Source of the DNA: Clostridiaceae bacterium
Lineage (GTDB): Bacteria; Bacillota; Clostridia; Saccharofermentanales; DTU023
Assembly (NCBI GenBank): GCA_012838135.1
Contig: DUPV01000016.1
Coordinates: 1-64,000 of the forward strand
Length of the DNA: 64,000 bases
Direction of reading: 5' to 3'
Shown here: positions 33,298 through 49,460 of the stretch, piece by piece
Position numbering within the stretch: position 1 is the stretch's first letter
Layout: every line of letters starts with the position of its first letter
Notes under the pieces: model-generated
Told to the model about the DNA's origin: nothing
What the model saw: only the letters and a program-made list of their open reading frames with translations
Databases searched by the model: none
Made by a program: the position numbers and the translations under genes

Positions 33298-33753
33298 ATG
33301 ACAGAAATAAATGACAAAGCTAACAAGAATCCTCTCGATACTTCCCTTATGCATGAGAAGCTGAAAGGAGATTCTTTTCCTCAAAATTGGGATGAATTTC
33401 TGGATGATGATATTCGTGAGTTCTTTGATCAGTTATTAAATATTACGGGACAAAAGAAGAGTGATGTGATCAGAAAAGCAAATCTCTCCAGAGTTTATGG
33501 TTACCAAATTATGGAAGGGCGAAGACGCGGCAAACGTGACTACTATCTTTTGATCGCTCTTGCAATGTCTCTTGATCTGAAAACCACACAGAGAATGTTG
33601 GCAGTAGCACAATACGGTGCACTGCATCCGCTCATCAAACGTGATGCTGCAATAATTTTTGCAATTAATCATGAATATGACATTATGCAGACTTATGATT
33701 TTATGTGTTCGCTGGGACTTGCTCCTTTGGATGATGGAACGGAAAATGAATAA
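33298..33753 (+). CDS. XRE-like helix-turn-helix protein at the head of the kinase island
   Basis: 151 residues, CAGGAGAG before the ATG. Residues ~40-100 hold a five-helix bundle with ITGQKKSDVIRKANLSRVYGYQIMEG-type helix-turn-helix and a LLIALAMSLDL helix, as in XRE proteins. The last 40 residues (RDAAIIFAINHEYDIMQTY) resemble a family found beside clostridial Ser/Thr kinases. It may regulate the island or be a kinase substrate. Both are inferred from position. Confidence 0.6.
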   Translation: MTEINDKANKNPLDTSLMHEKLKGDSFPQNWDEFLDDDIREFFDQLLNITGQKKSDVIRKANLSRVYGYQIMEGRRRGKRDYYLLIALAMSLDLKTTQRMLAVAQYGALHPLIKRDAAIIFAINHEYDIMQTYDFMCSLGLAPLDDGTENE

Positions 33754-33908
33754 ACATTTCTTAGTGTGCGAAAATCAGATCTCAGATATCTGAAACAACA
33801 CAGATAACAAAAAACATGTATTAGAGTTAAACTGACAATTTAATACTATAACCGGTTTTTCAGGGAGATTATCGCTAAGATTAATAATTCAAAAGTGTGG
33901 AGGTAAAA

Positions 33909-35192
33909 ATGGGCAAATCGATAAAACCAGCGAAAGCGATACTATGCATGATTATTGTATTTGCTATGATACTAACCGGTTGTAATTCTGAGCGTGAAGT
34001 TGAGCCTGATGCAACAGAAATAACAAAAATTTCTTCAGCAGCAGGCTTTTTAGCAGATAAAGTTGAAGGAAGCATGGGTTTTATTGCAAGTACTCCTAAA
34101 AAATCCAAAAATTCTGAGAATGCTTACCTGTATGATAATGCAGTAGCAATACTTGCGTTATCGTATGCAGGAGCTGACTGGCATGCTCAAAAAATTGCGG
34201 ATGCCATTTTATTTGCGCAAGAACATGATCGAACGTTCGATGATGGCAGACTTAGAAATGTCTATATCAGCGGTGATCCCAAAAGTGATTCAGGAAGATC
34301 TATTACGGCCGGGAAAGTTACGATCAGACTTCCCGGATTTTGGCAGGATGGACGTTGGCAGGAAGATTCTTATACTGTTTCAACCTCAACGGGAAATATT
34401 GCTTGGACTATTTTGGCACTTTGTACTGTGGCAGAAAATGCTACTTCCGAACAACGAGAGGAGTACATTGCGGCAGCGATTCGTGCGGCGGATTTTGTTC
34501 TTACTTTAAAATCTGATAGTGGAGGTTTTACAGCAGGATATGTAGGCTGGGATGATACGCAAGAGAAAGTTACTTATAAATCGACGGAACATAATATCAA
34601 TCTGATTTCTGCATTTTCTGCTCTGGCTGATCTCATCACAGAGCAAAGACCGGAAAAAGCGGCAGAGTATCTGGAAGCGTCAGAGTATGCCAAAATGTTT
34701 GTACTGTCTATGTATGATAAAAAGTTGCATTGTTTTTATACCGGCACGGAAGAAGACGGCAAGACAATAAGTAAGGGAGTTATTCCGCTTGATACGAATA
34801 CTCTGACGATTCTTGCACTGGAAGAACTGGAAGATACTCATAAAATTATTTCATTTGTCGAGGAAAGCATGACTGTAGGCGAAGGTTTTGATTTCAGTGC
34901 CGGGGATCTGGATGGTATCTGGAATGAAGGCACCGCGCAGATGGCTGTTTGTTACAGCAAACTCGGACATTTGGAGAAGTATGAGTCAATCATGCAATAC
35001 TTGAAGACTCAGACCGACAAGGATGGAAGCATCCCGGCTGCAGATAGGGATGGGGTTTCTACCGGTTTTGTTATTGTCGGAACAGATATTTTATGGGAGT
35101 ATAACAATTCACAAAGTATAGGAGCTACAGGCTGGCTTGCTTTTGCACAGATGAAAAAGAATCCTTTAGGGCAAAATTCTGAGCAGGAATAG
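33909..35192 (+). CDS. Helical-toroid lipoprotein paired with the glycosyltransferase-kinase
   Basis: 427 residues from the ATG at 33909 with GGAGG nearby (a GTG 12 bases upstream is less likely). Lipobox ILTGC gives Cys25. The mature part is a repeated helical-hairpin toroid, with DNAVAILALSYAGAD, TGNIAWTILALCTV, IWNEGTAQMAVCYSKLG and a closing ATGWLAFAQMKKNP. This is the (alpha/alpha)6 shape of glycan-active enzymes. Its stop lies one base before the next start, so it is translationally linked to the glycosyltransferase fusion. By analogy with BcsA/BcsZ pairs it may act on the polymer made by that enzyme. No catalytic residues are proven. Confidence 0.6.
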   Translation: MGKSIKPAKAILCMIIVFAMILTGCNSEREVEPDATEITKISSAAGFLADKVEGSMGFIASTPKKSKNSENAYLYDNAVAILALSYAGADWHAQKIADAILFAQEHDRTFDDGRLRNVYISGDPKSDSGRSITAGKVTIRLPGFWQDGRWQEDSYTVSTSTGNIAWTILALCTVAENATSEQREEYIAAAIRAADFVLTLKSDSGGFTAGYVGWDDTQEKVTYKSTEHNINLISAFSALADLITEQRPEKAAEYLEASEYAKMFVLSMYDKKLHCFYTGTEEDGKTISKGVIPLDTNTLTILALEELEDTHKIISFVEESMTVGEGFDFSAGDLDGIWNEGTAQMAVCYSKLGHLEKYESIMQYLKTQTDKDGSIPAADRDGVSTGFVIVGTDILWEYNNSQSIGATGWLAFAQMKKNPLGQNSEQE

Positions 35193-35193
35193 A

Positions 35194-38100
35194 ATGCGAA
35201 AAAAAACAAGTCGAAGAAAAAGAAAAATACCGGAAGATCAAAGAGCAAAAAGACAAATTCCGGAAAATCTCGGGAACAGCCTATGTGGTGTTTGGTCATA
35301 TATAGTCGTGCTTGCAATTGATGCAGGCGTTCATATTACGTTATTCTTTCTTTATGGTCAGACGTTGGGAGATTTGATACGACTTTTTCTTTCTTTTATC
35401 TTTTTCATTTACCCTTTACAATATATAGCTGATACTCTGTGGTCGCTTCGACCGTCGGTTTGTGAGATCCTTGCCGGAAGACTTCAAATCAATAGAAAAT
35501 ATTATATGAATACGATTCGGAAAGAAGTTGCTCGCGAGGCTCTTCTCCCGGTTACTATCAGTATACCTGTCTACTTGGAAGATAATGAAGTTATTTTTCA
35601 AACTCTGCGCCAGAGTATGATTGCAGTAAAACGTTATCATGAATATAGCGATCAGGAAAGCAATATTGTAGTTTCAGATGACGGGCTTGGCCCAATGTGC
35701 GGAGGTCATTGTACGAAAGAGAAAATCGACAGGCTGATTCAGACTTTTTTGTATGATTTTTCAGCATTAACACAACTGGAAGTACAGGCTGCTGAACGTG
35801 TTCTGTTTTATCGGAAAAACCGAATACCTTTTGTTGTGCGTCCGCAAGAGGGAAGGCTCGGTTTGTTTAAAAAGTCTTCTAATCTCAATTACACTTTATG
35901 TTTCGGTAATGCCGTAGCCGCAGGTAATTCTCCGGAAAACCTGACGCAGAAAGGACAACCTTTTGCAGAAGGTTATGCAGAAGGAAATATTAAGACTAAT
36001 GAGATAATCCTGCTTCTTGATAAAGATTCCGGAGTAAAAGAAAAAATCATTGAGGCAATTATTCCGGAATTTGCAGCAGATGAAAAACTGGCTTATGTAC
36101 AATGTGCCACCAAAGCTGAAAATTTATCTGAAAACTATTATTCGTATGCTACAGGTCATCAAATCAATAATCTGTTCCACAATGTTTGGCCGTGTAAAGC
36201 ATTGCAAGGTTTTTTTGTACCGCTGATCGGCCATAATGTGTTCTTGCGAAAAAGCATTTTGGAAAAGAGTGGATTTTGGTCTGAGAATAAAGTATCGGAA
36301 GATTTTGATAAAGCTATTAGTTTATACAGTATGGGTTATCATGGCAAATATGCCCAATTGAAGGGACTTGAGTTTACAGAATATGCAAGCAGGACGTTTA
36401 CTGAAGAAACATGTAAACAACGCAGGTATGCTTATGGTCTTTTGGAAATGATTTTTGACGGAACCATCGCTCCGAAAACAACACGAAACTGTGACCGGTT
36501 TTATATGTTGATATATTTTTTCTCTCTCTTGAATCAAGTGCTGCTTCTGCCGACAGTGCTTTATGAATGTTATCTGGGGAATATTTATCTTTTATGGGTG
36601 GGATTTATTTTCTGCAGTATCTGTTTTATTATGCTTCCGCGTGTCAGAAGTTTTATTATGCGACGGCGGCTGCCAAAAGAATATGCTGAACAAACTACAC
36701 ATACCGTGATCATTTCCCTTTCTTTTGTAGGACATTCGTATTCAGTTCTGGCGGGAGCATGCCGATATCTGATTAATAAAATCAAAGAAAACAATACACC
36801 GTTTCCCTCCACAAATGTAGATAAACTAGAGTATAGTTTTACTGCCGGCGTAAAAATTATGTTTGAATATATTCGTAAGAACAAATGGTTTCTCATAATA
36901 GCAGCTCTTTGTCTTGACCGTGCTATATTTATGCTCACAAGGAAGGGGATTGCAACAGCGACGGTATTTACGTATTGTTATATACTGTTTTGTGCTGTAT
37001 TCATTCCGTTTTTATTGACGCCACAATTCTTTGCGGGTTTGAAAATAAAACAGATGGTGAACAAAAGAAAGGCAGCAAGCGATATGAAAATATTTGGGAC
37101 TGATGTGCCTGATACTGCGCAAAACCAAGATGACATGGTGACAGCCTGGAATATGGATATGCAGATATTATCGCCGAGAATTGTCGATGAATCAGGGAAT
37201 AGTGAATTTCCAAACAGTGATATAGAGATTTTTCTCAATTCTTATAAAAAAACACTTAGTGATTTATTACCTGAAGCAAGTATGCCGGAAGAGCTTTTAG
37301 CTAATTATTCTTATGAAAGTTGTTTGCGTAAAGATCCGGAAGGCAAGAAGGAAATTTATTTGCTTCGACGGGATGATAATACCGGAGTCTTACTTAAAAT
37401 TACACAGGACTATCCTGAAGAAGATGCACTTGAAGAAGCAAATCTGTTAGCAAAATTGGATCATCCGGGGATTCCGAAAGTATTTGACTCTTTTGAGTAT
37501 GCCGGGAAAAATTTCATACTGCGCGAATATTTTGAAGGACGTTCGCTTTATGAGATCATTAAAAAAGGCGGTTGTCTGGGAGCAAAAGATATTTTTGGCA
37601 TAGTGCTGAAGCTTGTGGATATTTTGAGTTATTTGCATTCCAGGATACCTCCTGTAATTCATCGTGATATCAAGCCTCAGAATATTATCGTCGGTAAAGA
37701 CGGAAGCATACATTTGATTGATTTTGGAATTGCGAGATTGCATAAGTACGAACGTATACAAGATACTTCGGTGATTCTGACACTAGATTATGCTTCACCT
37801 GAACAATATGGTTTTGAACAGACAACACCTTTGTCGGATATTTATTCTCTTGGTGTTGTAATGCTTTTTATGGCTACAGGCAGAACTGCCAGAACAGGCT
37901 TGGAATCACAAATTGTTAATAATCGGCTGCGCAACTTGATTGAGCAATGTATTGCATTCAATCCGAAATCTCGAATTCAGAGCGTAGAGCAGATCAGGCA
38001 TTATATCATGCGCGACAGCAATCAACGGAAGTCAAAAAGAAAACGTTCACTGATAGTTGCAGCCTTATTGTTGATTTGTGCGACTTTTCTTTCTTTTTTG

Positions 38101-39072
38101 TCTTACGGAATAGGACTTTTCAGAGGAAAAAGTCATGCTGAAAGTCTTGGTTATGATCAGGGTTACGGTGTAGGTTATACAGATGGGTATGATGCAGTGC
38201 CTGTTCTTCATATGAGAGAAATACAGTCTGATCTAAATCGCGGCAATAGTCTCGGCAACTCAGCCATTGCCGGAGGAGCTTATGCTGTGCAGAGTGAAGA
38301 TTCTATTTTCTTTCTTTCAAATGGGAATATATACAAAATGTCGGAGCGCGGAACGGAAACCGAGCTTTTAGTGGAGGGAAAAGATGCCGCTGCTTTAAGC
38401 TTTTGCAATGGCTGGTTATATTATTCTTCCGGCAAGAATATTCTGCAAACAAATATTTATACTCTTGAAACCGATGTACTTTGTGAAAACTTGCCCGGAG
38501 AAATACATATATTAAATGATTGCTATTATGTCAAAACAGATGACGGACTATATTTGCTGAATACGATGACCGGTAAATTGACATCTTTAAACAATTTCTC
38601 TGCTTTAATGTCTTTGAACATAGTAGAAAACGGTTTGTTTTACGTCGATGAAAATGATAATTCCCTTTATAGTGCTAATCTAAATGGCAGTAGTGCAACT
38701 AAAATCTTGGATCGGCATTGTAGTAGCATTTGTTGGTTTGAGGATACTCTCTTTTGTGCAGTTAATGATGATGAAAAAAATGAATTGATTTTAGTTCGCG
38801 AGAATTTTGAAGAAGCTGAAACTCTTTCCGAGACAAATGCTGCTATGATCAACGTAACCGAAAACGGAATATATTTTATCAATGGATATGACAGAACAAT
38901 TAACTTGTGTTCGTTTGACGGACGCATCAGAAATAGAATCTCAAAAAATCGTGCTACTGACTTTAATATTGCCGGGAATTGGATTTTTTACCATAATGCC
39001 GCAGACGATAATAGGCTGTGGTGTGTAAGGCTTGACGGAGCCAATGATCACCCTGTACAGGTTGGAGGATAG
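35194..39072 (+). CDS. GT2 glycosyltransferase - Ser/Thr kinase - extracytoplasmic propeller fusion
   Basis: 1292 residues. Two N-terminal helices (about 33-80). A processive GT2 domain (about 115-440) with Asp162-Asp163 (VVSDDG), DKD (276-278), SED (368-370) and QRRY (409-412) as the QxxRW equivalent. Several helices (about 425-620). A complete kinase domain (about 715-945): beta3 Lys735, HRD (823-825), DFG (843-845), SPEQYG. A single membrane helix (about 953-977), a GYxxGY repeat (986-1001) and a DUF5050-like beta-propeller (about 1020-1292). GT2 and kinase lie in the cytoplasm and the propeller outside. A sensor that gates polysaccharide synthesis is inferred. Confidence 0.85.
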   Translation: MRKKTSRRKRKIPEDQRAKRQIPENLGNSLCGVWSYIVVLAIDAGVHITLFFLYGQTLGDLIRLFLSFIFFIYPLQYIADTLWSLRPSVCEILAGRLQINRKYYMNTIRKEVAREALLPVTISIPVYLEDNEVIFQTLRQSMIAVKRYHEYSDQESNIVVSDDGLGPMCGGHCTKEKIDRLIQTFLYDFSALTQLEVQAAERVLFYRKNRIPFVVRPQEGRLGLFKKSSNLNYTLCFGNAVAAGNSPENLTQKGQPFAEGYAEGNIKTNEIILLLDKDSGVKEKIIEAIIPEFAADEKLAYVQCATKAENLSENYYSYATGHQINNLFHNVWPCKALQGFFVPLIGHNVFLRKSILEKSGFWSENKVSEDFDKAISLYSMGYHGKYAQLKGLEFTEYASRTFTEETCKQRRYAYGLLEMIFDGTIAPKTTRNCDRFYMLIYFFSLLNQVLLLPTVLYECYLGNIYLLWVGFIFCSICFIMLPRVRSFIMRRRLPKEYAEQTTHTVIISLSFVGHSYSVLAGACRYLINKIKENNTPFPSTNVDKLEYSFTAGVKIMFEYIRKNKWFLIIAALCLDRAIFMLTRKGIATATVFTYCYILFCAVFIPFLLTPQFFAGLKIKQMVNKRKAASDMKIFGTDVPDTAQNQDDMVTAWNMDMQILSPRIVDESGNSEFPNSDIEIFLNSYKKTLSDLLPEASMPEELLANYSYESCLRKDPEGKKEIYLLRRDDNTGVLLKITQDYPEEDALEEANLLAKLDHPGIPKVFDSFEYAGKNFILREYFEGRSLYEIIKKGGCLGAKDIFGIVLKLVDILSYLHSRIPPVIHRDIKPQNIIVGKDGSIHLIDFGIARLHKYERIQDTSVILTLDYASPEQYGFEQTTPLSDIYSLGVVMLFMATGRTARTGLESQIVNNRLRNLIEQCIAFNPKSRIQSVEQIRHYIMRDSNQRKSKRKRSLIVAALLLICATFLSFLSYGIGLFRGKSHAESLGYDQGYGVGYTDGYDAVPVLHMREIQSDLNRGNSLGNSAIAGGAYAVQSEDSIFFLSNGNIYKMSERGTETELLVEGKDAAALSFCNGWLYYSSGKNILQTNIYTLETDVLCENLPGEIHILNDCYYVKTDDGLYLLNTMTGKLTSLNNFSALMSLNIVENGLFYVDENDNSLYSANLNGSSATKILDRHCSSICWFEDTLFCAVNDDEKNELILVRENFEEAETLSETNAAMINVTENGIYFINGYDRTINLCSFDGRIRNRISKNRATDFNIAGNWIFYHNAADDNRLWCVRLDGANDHPVQVGG

Positions 39073-39076
39073 TTCC

Positions 39077-40663
39077 ATGGCAATCAAACCGAAATTCAAG
39101 TGGGCAAATCAGGAAGAACGCTCTGTTTTTGAAATTGTTTCGGAAGACGGAATCATGCAACCGAATGAAATTTTGTATATTGTTCAGCAAATATGTTATT
39201 TGTTCGAGAAACAATATTATGATGACCTGTCAAAGTTTCACAGATATATTCATCCGAAAAATATTATCATACATAAAACAGATCGTGTTCAAATATCTGA
39301 ATCAATACGGCCGGTTTTTGAGCGGGAAGCTTATATTCCTCCGGAACAAAGTCAATCCGATGATTATACTTTCGAAGCAATTGTATATGGATTAGGCGCA
39401 CTCATGATTTTTATGGCAACCGGTCATGAGAAGAAAACAAATTTGGAATCGTTTATTGAAAATCGTGCACTGCGTGATCTGATAGAACACTGCATTGCCT
39501 TCGATCCGCAGTCACGCTTTCACAATATAAAAGAACTGCTGAATGCAATAAAAAGAACAAAGATTTCTCTGAATAAAAAGTTATTTGTTTTTATGATATT
39601 AGCTTGTGTCCTTTTAATATCAGGTTTGATCTTCTGTTTTTATCGACATGGAACAAAGCGGGGTAACTCCATCGGAGAAAATTCCGGCTACGCAACAGGC
39701 TATGCAATCGGCTATGAAAAAGGTTTTTCAGATGCGCCGGGAATCGGAATCAAAAATCCTGTTTTTGATTCGAAAAACGGAAATCTTTCAGGAAATTATG
39801 CATCGGAACTAGGTGCAATTGCAGCCAACGGTGAAGATGAAGTATTTTTTATTTTTGAAGATAATATATATCGGATGGATCCCTATACAGAAGAAATTAC
39901 AATGTTGCTATCGCATGTCGGAGCACGTGACCTCAATTATTTTGAGGGCTGGCTATATTTCTGTACAGCTGAAAAGATTTTTAGAATCAATCCCGATACT
40001 TTAAAAGAAGAAGAATTTTGTGATTCACATTCAGGAAATCTTTATATTGTTGATGAAATATTTTATCTCTATGACAGCTCAGGAACCGGGTATTTGTATG
40101 AGATAGATCCTGAGACGAAAACACTTACTCAATTAAGCGGTTCGATGGAATACCTTTGTCTTAATATTGTAGATAAGAAGTTGTATTATATTGATTCAGA
40201 TAAAGGTAATAATATTTATAGCAGTGATTTAGACGGCGGAAATTTAAATCTTATTAACAGTAATTATTGTGAAAGCTTTTGTATTAATAATGATGAAATA
40301 TTTGCCTGTACATATATTTTTAAAGAAGATTCAAGTACAGATAATGTTAAAAAAGATTCAAATATATATTGGGAAAGCTCCTTGGTCAGAATGGATTTAG
40401 ATGGTGGAAATCTTGAAAGTTTGACAAATGTTTCTGCCCATTATCCGAATGTTACAGATGGAGGGATTTATTATGTTGCAGGTCAGAATAAAACTCTCGA
40501 ATGGATGTCTTTAGACGGCAGAACCCACTATACCATTGTGCCTTCGCGTACCGGTTCATTTAATGTTGCAGGTCGTTGGATATTCTATCGAAATGAAGAA
40601 GATGACGGTAATCTGTGGCGAGTAAGAATTGACGGTTCAGGAAATACCAAGTCAACTCATTAA
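39077..40663 (+). CDS. Truncated pseudokinase with propeller-like sensor
   Basis: 528 residues, starting at the ATG 39077 behind GGAGG and four bases after the upstream stop. Residues 1-160 align with the C-lobe of the upstream kinase: FHRYIHPKNIII (54-65) with HRY in place of HRD, no DFG (SES follows), PPEQ for APE, and YGLGALMIFMATG. The N-lobe with glycine loop and Lys is absent. A membrane helix (168-190), GY repeat (204-217) and DUF5050-like domain (about 235-528) follow in the same order as its neighbour. It is not an active kinase. A regulatory partner of the fusion protein is the simplest inference. Confidence 0.78.
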   Translation: MAIKPKFKWANQEERSVFEIVSEDGIMQPNEILYIVQQICYLFEKQYYDDLSKFHRYIHPKNIIIHKTDRVQISESIRPVFEREAYIPPEQSQSDDYTFEAIVYGLGALMIFMATGHEKKTNLESFIENRALRDLIEHCIAFDPQSRFHNIKELLNAIKRTKISLNKKLFVFMILACVLLISGLIFCFYRHGTKRGNSIGENSGYATGYAIGYEKGFSDAPGIGIKNPVFDSKNGNLSGNYASELGAIAANGEDEVFFIFEDNIYRMDPYTEEITMLLSHVGARDLNYFEGWLYFCTAEKIFRINPDTLKEEEFCDSHSGNLYIVDEIFYLYDSSGTGYLYEIDPETKTLTQLSGSMEYLCLNIVDKKLYYIDSDKGNNIYSSDLDGGNLNLINSNYCESFCINNDEIFACTYIFKEDSSTDNVKKDSNIYWESSLVRMDLDGGNLESLTNVSAHYPNVTDGGIYYVAGQNKTLEWMSLDGRTHYTIVPSRTGSFNVAGRWIFYRNEEDDGNLWRVRIDGSGNTKSTH

Positions 40664-40954: not shown

Positions 40955-42529
40955 ATGCTGGAAATATTAGGAATAATACTATTGAGTAATGTAAACCGGA
41001 AGAATGCTCTGGCTCGCGGACGCCAACCGGGAGGTTTCATAGCGCTTACCATCTGTCTGTGGCTGGGTTTAGAGTTTTTAGGTGCTTTTATCGGCATAAT
41101 GGCGAAACTCGGTATCGGCTCATATATTCTTGCTATCGTCATGGCTGCGATCGGCGCCATCATCTCGTATCTTGTAGCGAAAAACTGCAAACCGGGCACT
41201 TATGTGCCATCGGCGCCGATGGTACATAACTATACCGCGAATGTTGAGCCGCTTGCTGGTTCCGGACCACCACAAATGCAGTATGCGGCTATGCCGTATT
41301 CAGGAAACGAACAAGGAACACCAACTTCGTTTTGCCATAAATGTGGCGCACCGTTAATCGAAGGTGCAATGTTTTGTGGAAACTGCGGACAACAGCGCTT
41401 TATACAGGTTGAAACTGCCAACACTCGGACACCCGAAACAGAAGCTGCTGTACTGTTCCCGTTTAATAGCGAAGAAACAGTTCCTTATACAGTAAAACCG
41501 ATGCGTGCCGTATGGACAGCAGTTTGGGTTATCGGTGCCTGGATTATGATCTTTATCGCCCATATTTTTTTAGGCATCCATCTTTTATACTGCAATGCCG
41601 TTTCGGCTGTGATTGTTCATGTCCTTTTCGGTACGGGTATGTATCTGCTTATGCAAAAGAGCGTAAAATACAAGGTGTTTGCAGGAGGTACCATGGTCAT
41701 TGCCGTACTAATTAATGTTTTTAATTATTGTTTACTGCGTATGCCTTTACTAAGAGAAAGTCCTTTCGGACTGAAAGAATTGTTTGCGATTCCGATTTCC
41801 CCTATGATGATTATAAGTATCCTTCTGCGAGCATTTGTTGTTGCAGGTGGTGCGTTATTTTTTGCCTGGCTTTTGGGACCAAAACAACAGCGGGAACCGT
41901 CTCTTGATAACGGCACAACAGCTGCTTCGGATATGAAGGCCAAAGTTGAAAAGAAGAGAGTTTGGCAGACGGCGTTATACACTGTATTGGTGAGCTTGCC
42001 GGTCTATATAATTTTTATCCTTGCTACCTCGCCGATATACTTGCAGCGCCCTTTGCTTTTACTGCAATTTTTGATCAGATGTTTACTCACAGCGATGACA
42101 CTGATTTTTACTCCTCCTGCTTTACATGGACTTTCCACTATGAATACTAAGCGCATACGACTTTCAGGCTGGGGACTCGTCTGGTGCTGGCTCTGTGTGG
42201 CAGGGATGTTCTTTTCGCTCGTGATGTGTATAATATATGCGGTATCCTCCTTTGCAGCACCCATGTACTCCTCTCAGCTTTTCATGAGTATTACCTTGCT
42301 TACGGGCTTTATCATGCTGATCGCAAGAAGACGCTTGGGTTGGTACGTTATTCTGTTCGGTGCATATATTTCGCTTGTCGGGCAGTTTGATGAATCTCTT
42401 AGTGCCGTTATCCAAGGAGCAAATCATTACATTCCGTTTTTAATAGGTGCGATATCCGGTGCTTTTAATCCGTTAATCACATGGCTCTCCATCCGGGGCG
42501 CTTGGTATGCAAAATTTCCGAAGATGTAA
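40955..42529 (+). CDS. Zinc-ribbon multi-pass membrane protein
   Basis: 524 residues, AGGAGA before the ATG. Two helices at the N-terminus (about 28-75), a Pro/Met-rich loop, a zinc ribbon CHKCG...CGNCG (Cys127, 130, 141, 144), then about nine more helices. A Lys/Gln-rich cytoplasmic loop lies near 300-330. No transporter motif is recognised. Third-codon positions look richer in G and C than in the flanking genes, by eye. It lies behind operator module copy 1 and is co-directional with the kinases. It may be an adaptor or channel-like component of the island. Confidence 0.65.
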   Translation: MLEILGIILLSNVNRKNALARGRQPGGFIALTICLWLGLEFLGAFIGIMAKLGIGSYILAIVMAAIGAIISYLVAKNCKPGTYVPSAPMVHNYTANVEPLAGSGPPQMQYAAMPYSGNEQGTPTSFCHKCGAPLIEGAMFCGNCGQQRFIQVETANTRTPETEAAVLFPFNSEETVPYTVKPMRAVWTAVWVIGAWIMIFIAHIFLGIHLLYCNAVSAVIVHVLFGTGMYLLMQKSVKYKVFAGGTMVIAVLINVFNYCLLRMPLLRESPFGLKELFAIPISPMMIISILLRAFVVAGGALFFAWLLGPKQQREPSLDNGTTAASDMKAKVEKKRVWQTALYTVLVSLPVYIIFILATSPIYLQRPLLLLQFLIRCLLTAMTLIFTPPALHGLSTMNTKRIRLSGWGLVWCWLCVAGMFFSLVMCIIYAVSSFAAPMYSSQLFMSITLLTGFIMLIARRRLGWYVILFGAYISLVGQFDESLSAVIQGANHYIPFLIGAISGAFNPLITWLSIRGAWYAKFPKM

Positions 42530-42649: not shown

Positions 42650-44383
42650 TTGTCCGATGTGTCAGAATTTTTACAATCATATAGCGAAAAGCTCCAACAG
42701 GGAATAGCTGATGCAGATATGCCCTCGGAACTGACAGAGCAGTTTGTTTTTGACAGCTTGATCAAACAAGATGACGGAAAAGAAGTATATTTTATTACCC
42801 GTAAATCAGACGGTTTGCGTGCCGTACTTCGTATTACAAGTGCTGAGAGCGGCGAAGATGCTGTTACTGAGGGAATGGTACTGACAAAACTTGATCATCC
42901 TGCCATACCGAAAATGCTCGGTACATGGGAGCATAACGGACGCAGTTTCATGGTGCGGGAATATTTTGCAGGTGATGATCTTAATGCCTTCATCCGTAAG
43001 CACGGTACATTAAGCCGGGAAATGCTGTTTAATATTACTCTGCAATTGTGTGATATTCTGACCTACATTCACGGCCAGAATCCTGCCGTTATTCATCGTG
43101 ATATCAAACCGGAAAATATAATTATTTCAGGTAAAAGTGATGTGAAACTTATAGACTTCGGCATCGCCCGCGATTTCAAATCAGAAACCGATAGCGATAG
43201 AGATACGCAAATTGCGGGTACGAGGTCATACATGGCACCGGAACAATTCGGCAGTGAACAGACCGATCATCGTGCTGATATCTATTCTTTAGGCATGGTC
43301 ATGGTTTTTATGGCCACAGGAAAAACAAAGAGACATAATCTGAAAACCATTTATCCTTATAAAGAATTGGTGTCAATCATTGAAAAGTGCCTGAGAAAAG
43401 ACCGCGATCAGCGTTTTAAGACAGCGAAACGGCTGAGAAACAAAATCCTTTGGGTTCAACGACAATTTACTAAAAAGATACTAGTGTCTGCCGGGATATG
43501 TTTCCTGATTGCCGCAGCGTTTTTATCCGGCTTGTTTATCGGACAAAAGCGAGGTTTTCAAAACGGTGTAGATTTCATCATGGATATTCCTGTCGATAAG
43601 AATCGTCCGTTTACAGAAGAGGAACTCATAGAGCCAATTACCTTTGGCAGCGAATATCTCGATTTAGCGGTGCGAAATATTTTGAATAAGCAGCAAGGCG
43701 ACACAATCTACCGTACCGAAGTCAACAATCGCATTGATGAAATTCGGATTTATGGAACCTATATCCTGCATCCGGATTTGGAAGATGAATTACTCAAAAC
43801 GCATGTAGGCAAAGGAACAGTCAGTTACATTACCGATACGGGGTTTCGCATTGATGGACGAGGTGATATCAGTTCTCTTACGGACATTCCCAACATGTAT
43901 TATCTGCGCAACTTAATTCTGACCTCACAATCGATTTCCGATCTCTCTCCTCTTACAGGCATGAAGTTGGAAAAGATTAATTTAAGCAACAATTTTGTAG
44001 GGAATTTATTGCCGCTGAAAGATATGGTGACACTGCGCGAGCTGGATGTATGCCAAAATCCTCTGCGTGATCTCACCCCGATTTCTCGCCTGCTCTCACT
44101 GGAAAGCCTTGACATCAGCCAAACACAGGTGACAGATCTGATGCCGCTTGCCGAGCTTACCAAACTGCAAACACTGCAGCTGGAATATTGCGATATTGAA
44201 GATATAAGAGTGTTAGCTAAACTGCCTAATTTGCAAGAGGTTGATCTGAGCAATACGCTTATCACAGACCTTTCACCGCTCATAAGGCAGCATAATCCCG
44301 TGACAGTACGTTGCGTGGGTTTGCCCCGGAATGTTGTCGATGCTGTACGAAATAATCCGGGCATTGTATTGATTGAGGAATAG
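42650..44383 (+). CDS. Ser/Thr kinase with extracytoplasmic leucine-rich repeats
   Basis: 577 residues with a TTG start eight bases after AGGAGG. Kinase domain (about 38-270): HRDIKPEN (149-156), DFG (169-171), APE (196-198). The beta3 position, Lys735 in the neighbouring fusion kinase, is Arg61 here. A pre-kinase segment (1-40) is shared with that kinase. Membrane helix (277-298), then a short GQKRGFQNG motif. Residues ~400-560 hold at least six leucine-rich repeats of internalin type (for example SISDLSPLTGMKLEKINLS). The sensor lies outside the cell. Activity with Arg61 is uncertain. Confidence 0.85.
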   Translation: MSDVSEFLQSYSEKLQQGIADADMPSELTEQFVFDSLIKQDDGKEVYFITRKSDGLRAVLRITSAESGEDAVTEGMVLTKLDHPAIPKMLGTWEHNGRSFMVREYFAGDDLNAFIRKHGTLSREMLFNITLQLCDILTYIHGQNPAVIHRDIKPENIIISGKSDVKLIDFGIARDFKSETDSDRDTQIAGTRSYMAPEQFGSEQTDHRADIYSLGMVMVFMATGKTKRHNLKTIYPYKELVSIIEKCLRKDRDQRFKTAKRLRNKILWVQRQFTKKILVSAGICFLIAAAFLSGLFIGQKRGFQNGVDFIMDIPVDKNRPFTEEELIEPITFGSEYLDLAVRNILNKQQGDTIYRTEVNNRIDEIRIYGTYILHPDLEDELLKTHVGKGTVSYITDTGFRIDGRGDISSLTDIPNMYYLRNLILTSQSISDLSPLTGMKLEKINLSNNFVGNLLPLKDMVTLRELDVCQNPLRDLTPISRLLSLESLDISQTQVTDLMPLAELTKLQTLQLEYCDIEDIRVLAKLPNLQEVDLSNTLITDLSPLIRQHNPVTVRCVGLPRNVVDAVRNNPGIVLIEE

Positions 44384-44794: not shown

Positions 44795-47383
44795 ATGAAT
44801 AAAGAAATATTTACTATATCAATGGGAATTACGCTCTTTGCAGATAGCAGGTATCCCGGTCCTGTATCGCAAACCCCTGAAGATGTAAACCGTTTCCTGG
44901 CACCGTTTGTTATGCAAATCTTTAAGAAATATTATCCGGGAGCAAGCGAAGACAAAAACAATCATTGGAATTACGATACTCGTTTCACGGTTATTCGGGA
45001 TTTTGGCATACAGAATACACAGCATTTAGAATTTCGCAATAGAAACACCGGTGAAATTATTGATACGGCAAAATATTCGGATATTTGCAATGCAGCCAAA
45101 GAGAGCTGGAAAAATGCCGTAATGCAAGCATATCCCGGATACAGCCATGCTGCTTTGGCAGAAGGAATGGCCAATGCACGCTTTGAATTCTTTCCGCAAA
45201 ACGGCTTGCTCATTGGCTTTACATTGCTAAAAGGGCTGGTTGAACAAGGCGCGGAAGATTTTATGACAGAGCGTGAACGCAATGCAACTCAAGGCTATCC
45301 TCAAGGCGTACAAAGAACTTTATATCTGAGATTTGATATTGAAAAACTATCCGGCAGATACGGAGCCGATAGTTATCGAATTTTGTTTACTTCCATTCCA
45401 TCTACATTGTTAGTGGGAGCAATTTTACGGATGGGAGATTCGGCCGATACACTTGCCGGCAGAGAAAATGTAAATGTAGTAGGAATAACAATGATAGACA
45501 GCGGTCAATTAGACATGATCAGGAAAGAACTCTCTGACTCTACTGCGTTTATGGCGGTTGCTGCCACCCGGCCTTTTTTACTTGCAGAAGGATTGGGTCA
45601 GGAACCACTTGTCTTGGATGGAGTCTTTACCGCTTTAGGTGTGGAAGTTCAAAACGATAATTTTTCTTGGGCAAAAAATGTATGGGACGGGCTAAAGGAA
45701 TCCGGTAAAGTAACAGATCCGATCATCCCTTCTGAAAATCCCGAAGCAGACATTTCCGGCATATTGTCTGTTGAGTACGGCAACGTTCAGGAAATTCCTT
45801 TTCCGGCAGAAACCAAGCCCTTTGCAATGCTCGGCACTAATCATTTTGTAGTCACAAACGGCAAATCAATCGGTAAGAAGTATGGTGTGATCGATAATAA
45901 TGGCAGGATTGTATTACCTATTACTCTAAAACACTCAGAAGCAATGTATGGTCCTATCAAATTTGAGATGCTGAATGAGAAGGCAATTTTACTTAAAAGT
46001 AATGTATTTACTGTTTTCAGCTTGAACGGCAATCCGATCGCAAGCTTTAAAAGAGTGGTCAGCCTTGGTTCAGAACTACTGGCAGTTTCCAATGGCAATA
46101 AATTTGCAATCATGAGAATCGACGGCAGTATGGTAAGCAGTGAAGAATTTGACTTAATCCATCCTTTTAACGATGGGATTGCTATTGCCCAAAAAGGGGA
46201 TACTGTGCTTGGCTATTCAACAGAGGCGACCGTTGTTTTTATACTGAGAGGCATTGATGAAATTCGCACGTATTGTAACGGATATGCCGTATTCAGAAGA
46301 GGAAAAAAATGGGGAGCTATCGACACTAAGGGGAATATTGCATTGGAGGCAAAGTGGAGCTGGCTCAGAGATTGTATGTTTGATGCTTTCGTTTTTTCCG
46401 AATCTCCTCAACCAAAAATTAATTTAGATAATTTCGGATTGGTAGCTGTTGGTGACCGTGTCATTTTGCCATGTCAATATAAAAATTTGGAACAAATAGA
46501 TGCAAATATGTTGAAGCATGGAACCGTGATTTTTTTTCAATATACAGTGGGAAATACACGCTATACTCAATCTTTGTTGACCTTTGCCGTCATCGATTTG
46601 CAAGGAAACGAGCTTATTCCCCAGGGATTAGCTGCTATCGGTACAGAGAGCGAAGGGTTGCGTGCTTATGCAAGGTATTATTCTGATAAACATATAGAAT
46701 TCGGCTACATGGATAAAGATTGGAAAAGTGTCTTTATCGCATCGATTGTGACTAAGGTTCCTACCGGAGATGCCTTTAAATTCGGTATTGTCAGTACCAG
46801 TTCCTATCTGTTTTCTTACAAAATAGATGATTTGTTTTCACCTTTTTCAAATGGCAAGGCTTGGGTGAGATTGTCACAAGATGGACGATATTTAAAAGAT
46901 GGACGCTGGATTAATAAGGCAGGACAAGAAACGACTGCCGGCGAAAAACTAACTCCTACAGAAACGGTAATTAGTCCTGACGAAAAGAAAGCTCAAGAGG
47001 TCCTTGAGAGACTTAGCAGTTATTTCACACGTTTAGGCGGGGAAGATCCACACAAAAGTTGCAGACGTGTCATCGGTGATTTATGGGAGATCGAAGCACA
47101 TGATGGCAAAAAATCCTTCGTTTTCAGCCAGATGGAGTCGGTTAACGGTTTCAGTTGTGGCTTAATTGCAGTCAAGGCTCTGTCTAACCAAAAGTGGGGC
47201 TATGCAGATTATAACGGTAATTTGATTGTGCCCCCGAAATATGATGAGGCTAAACCCTTTAATAATAATCGTACATGGGCTAGGCTGGGGAAAAATTATT
47301 TCATTATTAAGAGAGAAGCAGTTCTTAATAATAGCAAAAATAATGCCGAAAATAATAGCGAAAGTAATACCGAAGTTTTATAA
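44795..47383 (+). CDS. WG-repeat protein with an unassigned N-terminal domain
   Basis: 862 residues, no signal peptide, AAGGAAA before the ATG. Residues 1-~300 form a domain I do not recognise (RYPGPVSQTPEDVNRFLAPF, then WKNAVMQAYPGYS). Residues ~330-860 contain repeats of the WG type: GKKYGVIDNNGRIVLP, GKKWGAIDTKGNIAL, QKWGYADYNGNLIVPP. WG repeats form beta structures in proteins of unknown role. A Asn/Ser/Glu-rich tail closes it. Likely cytoplasmic, possibly a substrate or scaffold for the island's kinases. Confidence 0.75.
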   Translation: MNKEIFTISMGITLFADSRYPGPVSQTPEDVNRFLAPFVMQIFKKYYPGASEDKNNHWNYDTRFTVIRDFGIQNTQHLEFRNRNTGEIIDTAKYSDICNAAKESWKNAVMQAYPGYSHAALAEGMANARFEFFPQNGLLIGFTLLKGLVEQGAEDFMTERERNATQGYPQGVQRTLYLRFDIEKLSGRYGADSYRILFTSIPSTLLVGAILRMGDSADTLAGRENVNVVGITMIDSGQLDMIRKELSDSTAFMAVAATRPFLLAEGLGQEPLVLDGVFTALGVEVQNDNFSWAKNVWDGLKESGKVTDPIIPSENPEADISGILSVEYGNVQEIPFPAETKPFAMLGTNHFVVTNGKSIGKKYGVIDNNGRIVLPITLKHSEAMYGPIKFEMLNEKAILLKSNVFTVFSLNGNPIASFKRVVSLGSELLAVSNGNKFAIMRIDGSMVSSEEFDLIHPFNDGIAIAQKGDTVLGYSTEATVVFILRGIDEIRTYCNGYAVFRRGKKWGAIDTKGNIALEAKWSWLRDCMFDAFVFSESPQPKINLDNFGLVAVGDRVILPCQYKNLEQIDANMLKHGTVIFFQYTVGNTRYTQSLLTFAVIDLQGNELIPQGLAAIGTESEGLRAYARYYSDKHIEFGYMDKDWKSVFIASIVTKVPTGDAFKFGIVSTSSYLFSYKIDDLFSPFSNGKAWVRLSQDGRYLKDGRWINKAGQETTAGEKLTPTETVISPDEKKAQEVLERLSSYFTRLGGEDPHKSCRRVIGDLWEIEAHDGKKSFVFSQMESVNGFSCGLIAVKALSNQKWGYADYNGNLIVPPKYDEAKPFNNNRTWARLGKNYFIIKREAVLNNSKNNAENNSESNTEVL

Positions 47384-47447
47384 TAATCTATAGACTATAA
47401 AAATGAATAAGTTCACAGAAGATCAAGATGAAGAAGGAGAATTTGAT

Positions 47448-49460
47448 ATGATTTGCAAAAATTGCGGGACACAAGTGCCGGAAGGTCAAAAGTTTTGCCA
47501 CATCTGTGGTAATGCCATAATAGTAAATCCTCCCGAAGTTGAAGTAACTTATAATATAGAAGGAAGCACATCTACACCTGTTGAGCAGTCGGATCAAGAT
47601 CCTGTTTATCCGCCGCCAGTTGAATCAGCCGAGCAAGTTCCGGGCTCACCTGATATAACAGCAGCAGATGTATTTCCGCCTTTAGAGCAGTCAGATCAAG
47701 GTTCCGTTTATCCGCCGCCGGTTAAATCTGCCAAACAAGTTTCGGGATCACCTGATATAACAGCAACAGGGGTATTTCCGCCTTTAGAGCAGTCAGATCA
47801 AGGTTCCGTTTATCCGCCGCCGGTCGAATCTGCCGAACAAGTTCCGGGCTCACCTGATATAACAGCAGCAGATGTGTTTCCGCCTGTTGAACAGTCAGAT
47901 CAAGGATTTATTTATCCGCCGCCGGTCGAATTTGCCGAACAAGTTCCGGGCTCACCTGATATAACAGCAGCAGGAGCATTTCCGCCTTTAGAGCAGTCAG
48001 ATCAAGGTTCCGTTCAAGGTCCCGTTTATCCGCCGCAATTTGAATTCACTGAGCAAGTTCCGGAATTACCGAAGAAAAAACATAAAAACAAAAAACTATT
48101 TATCATTATCGCCAGTACGACTTTAGCTCTGATTATAATTGCGGCAATTCTGATTGTTCCTTTAATTATTAATAAAACAAATCAAAAAAAATACGACAAT
48201 GCGATGGCGTTATTAAATGCCGGTAATTATACTCAAGCTGAAGAGCAATTTACGGAACTTGGAGATTTTGGAGATGCTCAAGCTAAAGTCAAATACTGTC
48301 AAAACAAAGAAAAATATGACAATGCGATGGCGCTATTGGATGCAGGCAAATATACTCAAGCTGAAGAGCAATTTACTGAACTTGGAGATTTTGAAGATGC
48401 TCAAGCAAAAGCTGCATACTGTCAAAACAAAGAAAAATATGACGATGCGGTGGCGCTATTGGATGCAGGTAATTATACTCAGGCTGAAGAGCAATTCACG
48501 AAACTTGGAGATTTTGAGGATGCTCAAGCAAAAGCTGCATACTGTCAAAACAAAGAAAAATATGACAGTGCGGTTGCACTGTTAGATGACGGAAACTATG
48601 CTGAAGCCAAGGAGAAATTCGTTGAACTTGGAGATTTTGAAGATGCTACGATTCAAGTAAAAAATTGCGAAAATATAATTGATTATGAAAAAGCTGAGGA
48701 ATTACTGACGCAAGAAAAATATAGTGATGCGTCTACAGCATTTGAAAAATTGGGCGATTTTCGCGATTCAAGTGACAAAGTAGAATACTGTGAGAATTGG
48801 TTGGATTATTTAAAAGCTGAAGAATTATTTGCAGCCGGTGATTATGCAGCAGCAAAAGTTCTGTATGGAGATTTACCGCAAGATTCTTTCAATGATGCGA
48901 CAGAAAAACATTCGAAATGTGTTAATAAAGAAAAATATAAAGATGCGGAAACACTTTATACAGAAGGATCTTATTATGACGCTTATCTGGCTTTTAAAGC
49001 ATTGGGTTCTTTTGAAGACGCAGAACAACGCAAGTCCGAATGCATACAGCCTTTTCCCAACACCGGAGAACAGTATCACAATCCAAATTATTCGGGCAGT
49101 AGTATCTCATTATTGATTCTACCTCCGGCTAGTGATCAAAGCCGGAATTACATAAAAATCTACACACAGGATGACGTATTGGTCAGCACTATTGCCATTG
49201 ATCAAGGTGCATCGGCGGAAGTATTTTTACCAGAGGGCAGTTATCGAATCAAAAATGCTTATGGAACCGGTGCTTGGTTCGGGGAAGACGACATGTTCGG
49301 TGATGAAGGAATCTATTTGATTTTACTTAACAGCGAGAATAATAATGATTTGTTTAGCTTAGAGGCGTATAAATCATATACTCTTTATTTACGCTCTGCA
49401 GATGATGGTATGCCCGGGGATCCGGTAGATTCGAAAAATGAAAATAGAGATAATTTTTAA
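47448..49460 (+). CDS. Zinc-ribbon, proline-rich repeat, TPR-like membrane protein
   Basis: 670 residues from the ATG at 47448 with AAGGAG eight bases before it (an ATG 45 bases upstream lacks a site). Zinc ribbon CKNCG...CHICG (residues 3-22). Four full and one partial 34-residue units starting EQSDQGSVYPPPVE (about 46-200). Basic cluster and one membrane helix (about 220-240). Seven or eight TPR-like units of 41 residues (for example KYDNAMALLDAGKYTQAEEQ). A beta-rich C-terminal domain with LPEGSYRIKNAYG. By the positive-inside rule the TPR part is outside. A surface interaction module of the island is inferred. Confidence 0.75.
   Translation: MICKNCGTQVPEGQKFCHICGNAIIVNPPEVEVTYNIEGSTSTPVEQSDQDPVYPPPVESAEQVPGSPDITAADVFPPLEQSDQGSVYPPPVKSAKQVSGSPDITATGVFPPLEQSDQGSVYPPPVESAEQVPGSPDITAADVFPPVEQSDQGFIYPPPVEFAEQVPGSPDITAAGAFPPLEQSDQGSVQGPVYPPQFEFTEQVPELPKKKHKNKKLFIIIASTTLALIIIAAILIVPLIINKTNQKKYDNAMALLNAGNYTQAEEQFTELGDFGDAQAKVKYCQNKEKYDNAMALLDAGKYTQAEEQFTELGDFEDAQAKAAYCQNKEKYDDAVALLDAGNYTQAEEQFTKLGDFEDAQAKAAYCQNKEKYDSAVALLDDGNYAEAKEKFVELGDFEDATIQVKNCENIIDYEKAEELLTQEKYSDASTAFEKLGDFRDSSDKVEYCENWLDYLKAEELFAAGDYAAAKVLYGDLPQDSFNDATEKHSKCVNKEKYKDAETLYTEGSYYDAYLAFKALGSFEDAEQRKSECIQPFPNTGEQYHNPNYSGSSISLLILPPASDQSRNYIKIYTQDDVLVSTIAIDQGASAEVFLPEGSYRIKNAYGTGAWFGEDDMFGDEGIYLILLNSENNNDLFSLEAYKSYTLYLRSADDGMPGDPVDSKNENRDNF
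47583..48060 (+). repeat. 102-bp tandem coding repeats (proline-rich region)
   Basis: Four full units start at 47583, 47685, 47787 and 47889 with a partial fifth. They are nearly identical in places, suggesting recent expansion and possible copy-number change. They lie in frame within the zinc-ribbon/TPR gene. Confidence 0.85.
48189..48680 (+). repeat. 123-bp tandem coding repeats (TPR-like region)
   Basis: Units at 48189, 48312, 48435 and 48558 have a 123-bp period and high identity. Three or four more diverged units follow to about 49050. Period 41 residues rather than the canonical 34 of TPR. Confidence 0.85.

Follow-up and report, generated by a model that had tools for sequence, protein, structure and literature searches.

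Locus architecture

The window, that is, the whole stretch of 64,000 nucleotides analysed here, contains an open frame of 1292 codons at 35194-39072 (+) with no internal stop. It encodes a glycosyltransferase (GT2) synthase joined in one chain to a Ser/Thr kinase, a transmembrane (TM) helix and a DUF5050 β-propeller. The surrounding operon genes nearly abut one another. The features are listed below, with the basis of the assignment in parentheses.

33298-33753, +: small protein of 151 aa, HTH-like, whose gene opens the conserved unit (HTH by eye)
33897-35192, +: lipoprotein-like secreted (α/α)6 protein with a glycosidase-like fold (AF2, Foldseek)
35194-39072, +: GT2 synthase-Ser/Thr kinase-TM-DUF5050 propeller fusion (Pfam, homologue alignments)
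35194-37041, +: GT2 synthase module, residues 1-616 (Pfam, alignment, hydrophobicity)
36415-36429, +: KQRRY, residues 408-412, counterpart of QxxRW with Gln replaced by Lys/Arg (BcsA alignment)
37291-38031, +: Ser/Thr kinase domain, residues 700-946 (Pfam, alignment, fold search)
37348-37350, +: invariant Lys719, placed as in WNK kinases where the lost glycine-rich loop would have its third glycine (alignment, PMC1821047)
37396-37398, +: Lys735, β3 position, Arg at five of ten fusion loci
38047-38103, +: single TM helix, residues 952-970, RKSKRKR just before it (hydrophobicity)
38251-39069, +: DUF5050 β-propeller, residues 1020-1292, predicted outside (Pfam, model, PDB profile match)
39077-40663, +: pseudokinase-TM-DUF5050 propeller protein, adjoining every fusion locus examined (Pfam, alignment)
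40955-42529, +: multi-spanning membrane protein with a zinc ribbon; most loci conserve it downstream
42650-44383, +: second kinase, kinase-TM-LRR, observed in the genus of the window only (Pfam, alignment)

Pfam assigned Glyco_trans_2_3 to residues 271-473 (E 1.6e-22), Pkinase to 742-919 (E 5.8e-33) and DUF5050 to 1114-1287 (E 2.4e-23), all three well above the curated cut-offs. An earlier note on this DNA had described a glycosyltransferase, a kinase and a propeller in a single chain. On the translation, the GT2 motifs (DD162-163, DKD276-278, SED368-370, QRRY409-412) and the kinase motifs (Lys735, HRD823-825, DFG843-845) were found at the positions it had given, and its proposed membrane helix corresponds to the strongest hydrophobic stretch of the C-terminal part (952-970). 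The single chain was confirmed and proved recurrent; the note had, however, overlooked the adjacent pseudokinase-TM-propeller gene, whose ATG in the window lies 4 bases past the stop codon of the fusion.

Recurrence of the fusion

With the GT part as the query, matches were obtained in 8 of the 188 genomes of the order, the window included. Five named records matched as well, three of them apparently being the same contigs as genomes already found. The ten fusion loci, that of the window included, span three families of the order plus two further named records, labelled Erysipelotrichaceae and Oscillospiraceae by their submitters. At the other loci, the GT part shares 54-86% identity with that of the window. 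The whole chain is a single open frame of 1269-1308 aa in G033, G035, G037, G028, G029, G047, L012, and L013. The G108 copy is open through the GT and most of the kinase and then shifts frame in the kinase C-lobe; this frameshift (L018, 2296-2342) is either a sequencing error or the mark of a broken gene.

The earlier note had named a stop or frameshift between the GT2 and kinase parts, or a loss of GT2 motifs in homologues, as findings that would speak against it. We looked for both: the junction is in frame at all ten loci, and the catalytic GT2 residues are invariant in 11 GT sequences. The source of the window is a draft genome of 72 contigs, but a wrong joining of two genes by assembly or annotation is practically excluded by the nine further loci, from independent genomes, with an in-frame GT-kinase junction. 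The GT2-kinase-propeller fusion is real and recurrent, and not an assembly join.

The fusion chain is conserved across at least three families. Its coverage of the order (8 of 188 genomes) is patchy, and the system is therefore accessory. A sample of 398 genomes of the phylum, searched at E 1e-40, returned the window itself as the sole match, and the viral contigs searched held no relative. A test of the fusions as one clade gave p 0.509 with a poorly resolved free tree, so that monophyly is neither rejected nor established.

The GT2 synthase module

The GT2 module has two membrane segments before the catalytic domain and four to five after it. The acidic motifs of the BcsA type (DD, DxD, TED-type) are all present in the GT of the window, and D162, D163, D276, K277, D278, S368, E369, D370, R411, and Y412 do not vary across the 11 aligned sequences. 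In the alignment with BcsA, QxxRW pairs with K408-Q409-R410-R411-Y412, which places Lys408 at the position of the Gln. The QRRY that the earlier note had taken for a GT2 motif is thus present at residues 409-412 but belongs to a KxxRY; QxxRW itself is changed at both ends, with Gln replaced by Lys/Arg and Trp by Tyr.

BcsA (PDB 4hg6, 5ej1) and the fusion are both membrane GT2 proteins with DD/DxD/(T/S)ED motifs, and in both a cytoplasmic regulator stands behind the last membrane helices. In BcsA this regulator is PilZ, whereas the fusion, in which a Pfam scan gave no PilZ match, carries a Ser/Thr kinase with an outside propeller. They also differ in KxxRY versus QxxRW, and their sequence similarity is remote (E 0.0055). 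For these reasons, we rejected a cellulose synthase proper. The GT2 is probably processive and makes a polymer.

The kinase domain

Among the homologues, Glu748, H823-R824-D825, Asn830, and D843-F844-G845 are invariant; HRD, DFG and the αC Glu (E748) of Hanks-type kinases are thus in place. The other Hanks-type features, a GxGxxG loop together with a β3 Lys, are not those of this family. The loop is absent, and the Pkinase match begins at profile position 42. The β3 residue is Lys in the window, G033, G035, G037, and L013, and Arg in L012, G028, G029, G047, and G108. Of the complete set of kinase motifs claimed before, HRD and DFG therefore held up, but the glycine-rich loop is missing and Lys735 is kept at only 5 of 10 loci.

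Lys719 (in GKKEIY) does not vary, and in the alignment it falls on the third loop glycine of canonical kinases. WNK kinases carry their catalytic lysine at this position and are active with the relocated residue (PMC1821047, PMC4718504). The arrangement recurs in the second kinase (42650-44383), which has Arg at β3 and Lys in the loop. Compared with the WNK arrangement, in which the β3 lysine is dispensable (PMC1821047, PMC4718504), K719 is invariant, and the β3 Lys is missing at five loci and in the LRR kinase but present at the other five. Since half of the homologues keep the β3 Lys, the likeness to WNK is positional, not familial. Arg at β3 also occurs in other kinase-like families (PMC1821047). 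On this pattern of residues, activity of the fusion kinase is plausible, although it may be weak without a glycine-rich loop.

Membrane helix and propeller

The RKSKRKR stretch ahead of the helix favours, by the positive-inside rule, a location of the kinase inside and of the propeller outside. The propeller-like C-terminal domain was substantiated by a DUF5050 score of 83.2 bits (Pfam cut-off 27), by profile matches to the PDB and by an AF2 model. For the profile of the C-terminal domain (both chains), the best PDB match was the β-propeller 3s25 (E 2.1e-18), with a weaker match to 7eq5, a membrane kinase with a β-propeller. In the AF2 model of residues 687-1292, the propeller part is all-strand with a pLDDT of about 72-91; the activation segment and the region of the membrane helix are modelled with low confidence. 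A fold search with this kinase-propeller model gave only kinases and no propeller among the best 50 matches listed. The propeller call therefore rests on the sequence profile and the secondary structure.

The fusion has the order kinase, one TM helix, propeller, with predicted sidedness and the GT2 fused in front. Mycobacterial PknD is a receptor of the kinase-TM-propeller type. This protein, PDB 7eq5 and Deinococcus RqkA/DR2518 (PMC11007091) resemble the fusion in having a Ser/Thr kinase, one TM helix and an outside β-propeller, but they lack a fused glycosyltransferase. RqkA/DR2518 is stimulated by PQQ (PMC11007091). The layout of a kinase plus an outside propeller is established as ligand-responsive; responsiveness to PQQ itself is a feature of RqkA, and the likeness of the fusion, known from sequence, is one of layout. 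DUF5050 has been described as a propeller in TsgL of the type VII secretion variant T7SSg (PMC11217815). TsgL shares this domain with the fusion but is part of a different system, without a fused kinase or glycosyltransferase.

Conserved neighbours

At every fusion locus examined, the gene order is HTH-like protein, (α/α)6 lipoprotein, fusion, pseudokinase-TM-propeller protein. The HTH-like protein is about 72-96% identical across these loci. Few products of the unit are as conserved, yet it has no match in Pfam or NCBIfam.

In the lipoprotein, a hydrophobic stretch runs up to a Cys at residue 29. Its AF2 model (pLDDT 79.5, pTM 0.84) gave the glycosidases MmpH, 5z3c, and CPF_2247 as top Foldseek matches (E 1e-8 to 4e-7). 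An assignment as pectate lyase was rejected, being under the Pfam cut-off and less favoured by the fold search than the glycosidases; nitric-oxide-synthase matches to the lipoprotein profile were short (40 residues) and were dismissed. In BcsA-type systems, the (α/α)6 glycosidase BcsZ trims or releases cellulose outside the cell. A secreted (α/α)6 glycosidase-like partner encoded in the operon is thus a further likeness of the fusion to BcsA.

The pseudokinase has no N-lobe and no DFG, and HRD is changed to HPK in most copies. Its chain is ~33% identical to the kinase-propeller half of the fusion and therefore looks like a paralogue of it.

The same synthase with other regulators

Genome G523 encodes the same GT2, at about 42-44% identity with that of the window, fused to an EAL domain (E 1.1e-43) and a weak GGDEF domain (E 0.00027). 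Within its genus, G523 is one of 4 genomes out of 79 in which a GT of this type lies in a frame of 1114-1197 aa; it is also the only one for which the whole fused EAL was read. By eye, the GGDEF signature of G523 is SGGNF and the DDFG of its EAL is DGFG, which suggests a degenerate pair acting as a c-di-GMP receptor more than as an enzyme. At this locus (L019, 7643-14999), the GT2-GGDEF-EAL gene is followed by an (α/α)6 domain fused to GDPD, and a sulfatase-family protein, LtaS-like by eye, is encoded upstream. These neighbours hint at a glycerol-phosphate decoration of the polymer. In G1019, the GT stands alone (629 aa, 51% identity to the window), preceded by the same kind of (α/α)6 lipoprotein and followed by a histidine kinase and a response regulator; the histidine kinase presumably controls the neighbouring GT.

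These arrangements suggest one synthase unit with interchangeable regulators, namely, the kinase-propeller, the degenerate GGDEF-EAL or the neighbouring histidine kinase. In architecture, the kinase-propeller occupies the place of the degenerate GGDEF-EAL of the sister proteins, and it probably does so in function. The exchange of regulators on the same GT2 makes it more likely that the C-terminal part regulates the synthase. Since GGDEF-EAL is expected in the cytoplasm, it also places the C-terminal side of the GT inside.

We had expected all genomes with the fusion to lack c-di-GMP, which was not the case: four of the eight carry 8-16 GGDEF matches (G000 16, G033 8, G035 11, G108 12). The whole drafts of the other four, their close relatives G037, G028, G029, and G047, which are 89-96% complete, gave none, and a loss of GGDEF in them is likely. 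As these four keep the fusion without detectable GGDEF, its control there should not need c-di-GMP. Listeria PssC/PssE (PMC4125290) is likewise a Gram-positive GT2 exopolysaccharide synthase with an operon-encoded regulator, and the sister GT2-GGDEF-EAL proteins recall PssC with its degenerate GGDEF receptor PssE. PssE, however, is a protein of its own that acts as a receptor for c-di-GMP, whereas the regulator of the fusion is a kinase in cis, and GGDEF is sometimes absent from the genome.

Proposed mechanism

The best reading, to which we assign a probability of about 50%, is that of a receptor-controlled exopolysaccharide synthase gated in cis by its kinase. A conserved fusion with all three modules under constraint is consistent with synthesis being controlled directly from outside. 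The membrane GT2 would carry its regulator in cis: a Ser/Thr kinase in the cytoplasm, linked across the membrane by one helix to a β-propeller outside. The likely partner of the fusion is the co-encoded pseudokinase-TM-propeller protein. Pairing of the two chains probably involves contacts of kinase with pseudokinase and of propeller with propeller. The propellers may meet a ligand, perhaps polymer that has been exported or the cell wall, that alters this pairing and so switches the kinase. By phosphorylating the GT part, the linker or a partner close by, the kinase would then open or close the synthase. Outside the cell, the (α/α)6 lipoprotein may act on the polymer in the way BcsZ acts on cellulose, by trimming or releasing it. 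A more specific version, in which the synthase's own receptor kinase with a WNK-style relocated catalytic lysine and a paired pseudokinase receptor gate it in place of c-di-GMP, is tentative.

Alternatively, the fusion might only co-localise its parts, with the kinase signalling in trans and the GT unresponsive to phosphorylation in cis. Candidate targets are encoded in the operon, namely, the HTH-like protein, the zinc-ribbon membrane protein and the second kinase; the high conservation of the first (72-96%) and the variable GT-kinase linker (alignment end) would also suit such signalling. Yet signalling in trans requires no fusion, and three unrelated kinds of regulator occur on or beside the same GT2. 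We consider this explanation rather improbable.

Decidedly unlikely, in our view, is a dead or nearly dead kinase part that serves as a ligand-driven conformational switch, through which the propeller would move the synthase by allostery. It would account for the missing glycine-rich loop, the change of Lys735 to Arg in half of the homologues and a partner chain that is a clear pseudokinase. It does not sit well with the invariance of Lys719 (the WNK position), Glu748, HRD, Asn830, and DFG, nor with the activity of WNKs of such an arrangement (PMC4718504, PMC1821047).

Among the ways in which bacteria control membrane GT2 polymer synthases, that by c-di-GMP is the best studied. Each module of the fusion is already known, as are kinase-TM-propeller receptors and, with PilZ in BcsA, synthases fused to a regulator. 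No description of a GT2-kinase fusion was found in the open-access text searched; judged against this literature, the joining of a GT2 synthase to a receptor kinase appears to be new. If the kinase-gated reading is true, a single molecule would lead from an outside signal to polymer output, via a receptor kinase in the synthase's own chain. With three regulators occurring naturally on one synthase, the interchangeability of modules becomes testable, and the relocated-lysine kinase offers a test case for the tolerance of bacterial kinases to the loss of the β3 lysine.

Further observations on the operon

A role in anti-phage defence was considered and rejected: PADLOC matches were confined to the kinase domains, with none for the HTH-like protein, the lipoprotein or the zinc-ribbon membrane protein. 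Further downstream of the fusion, the window encodes a WG-repeat protein (44795-47383) and a zinc-ribbon/TPR-like protein (47403-49460), both with relatives at several fusion loci.
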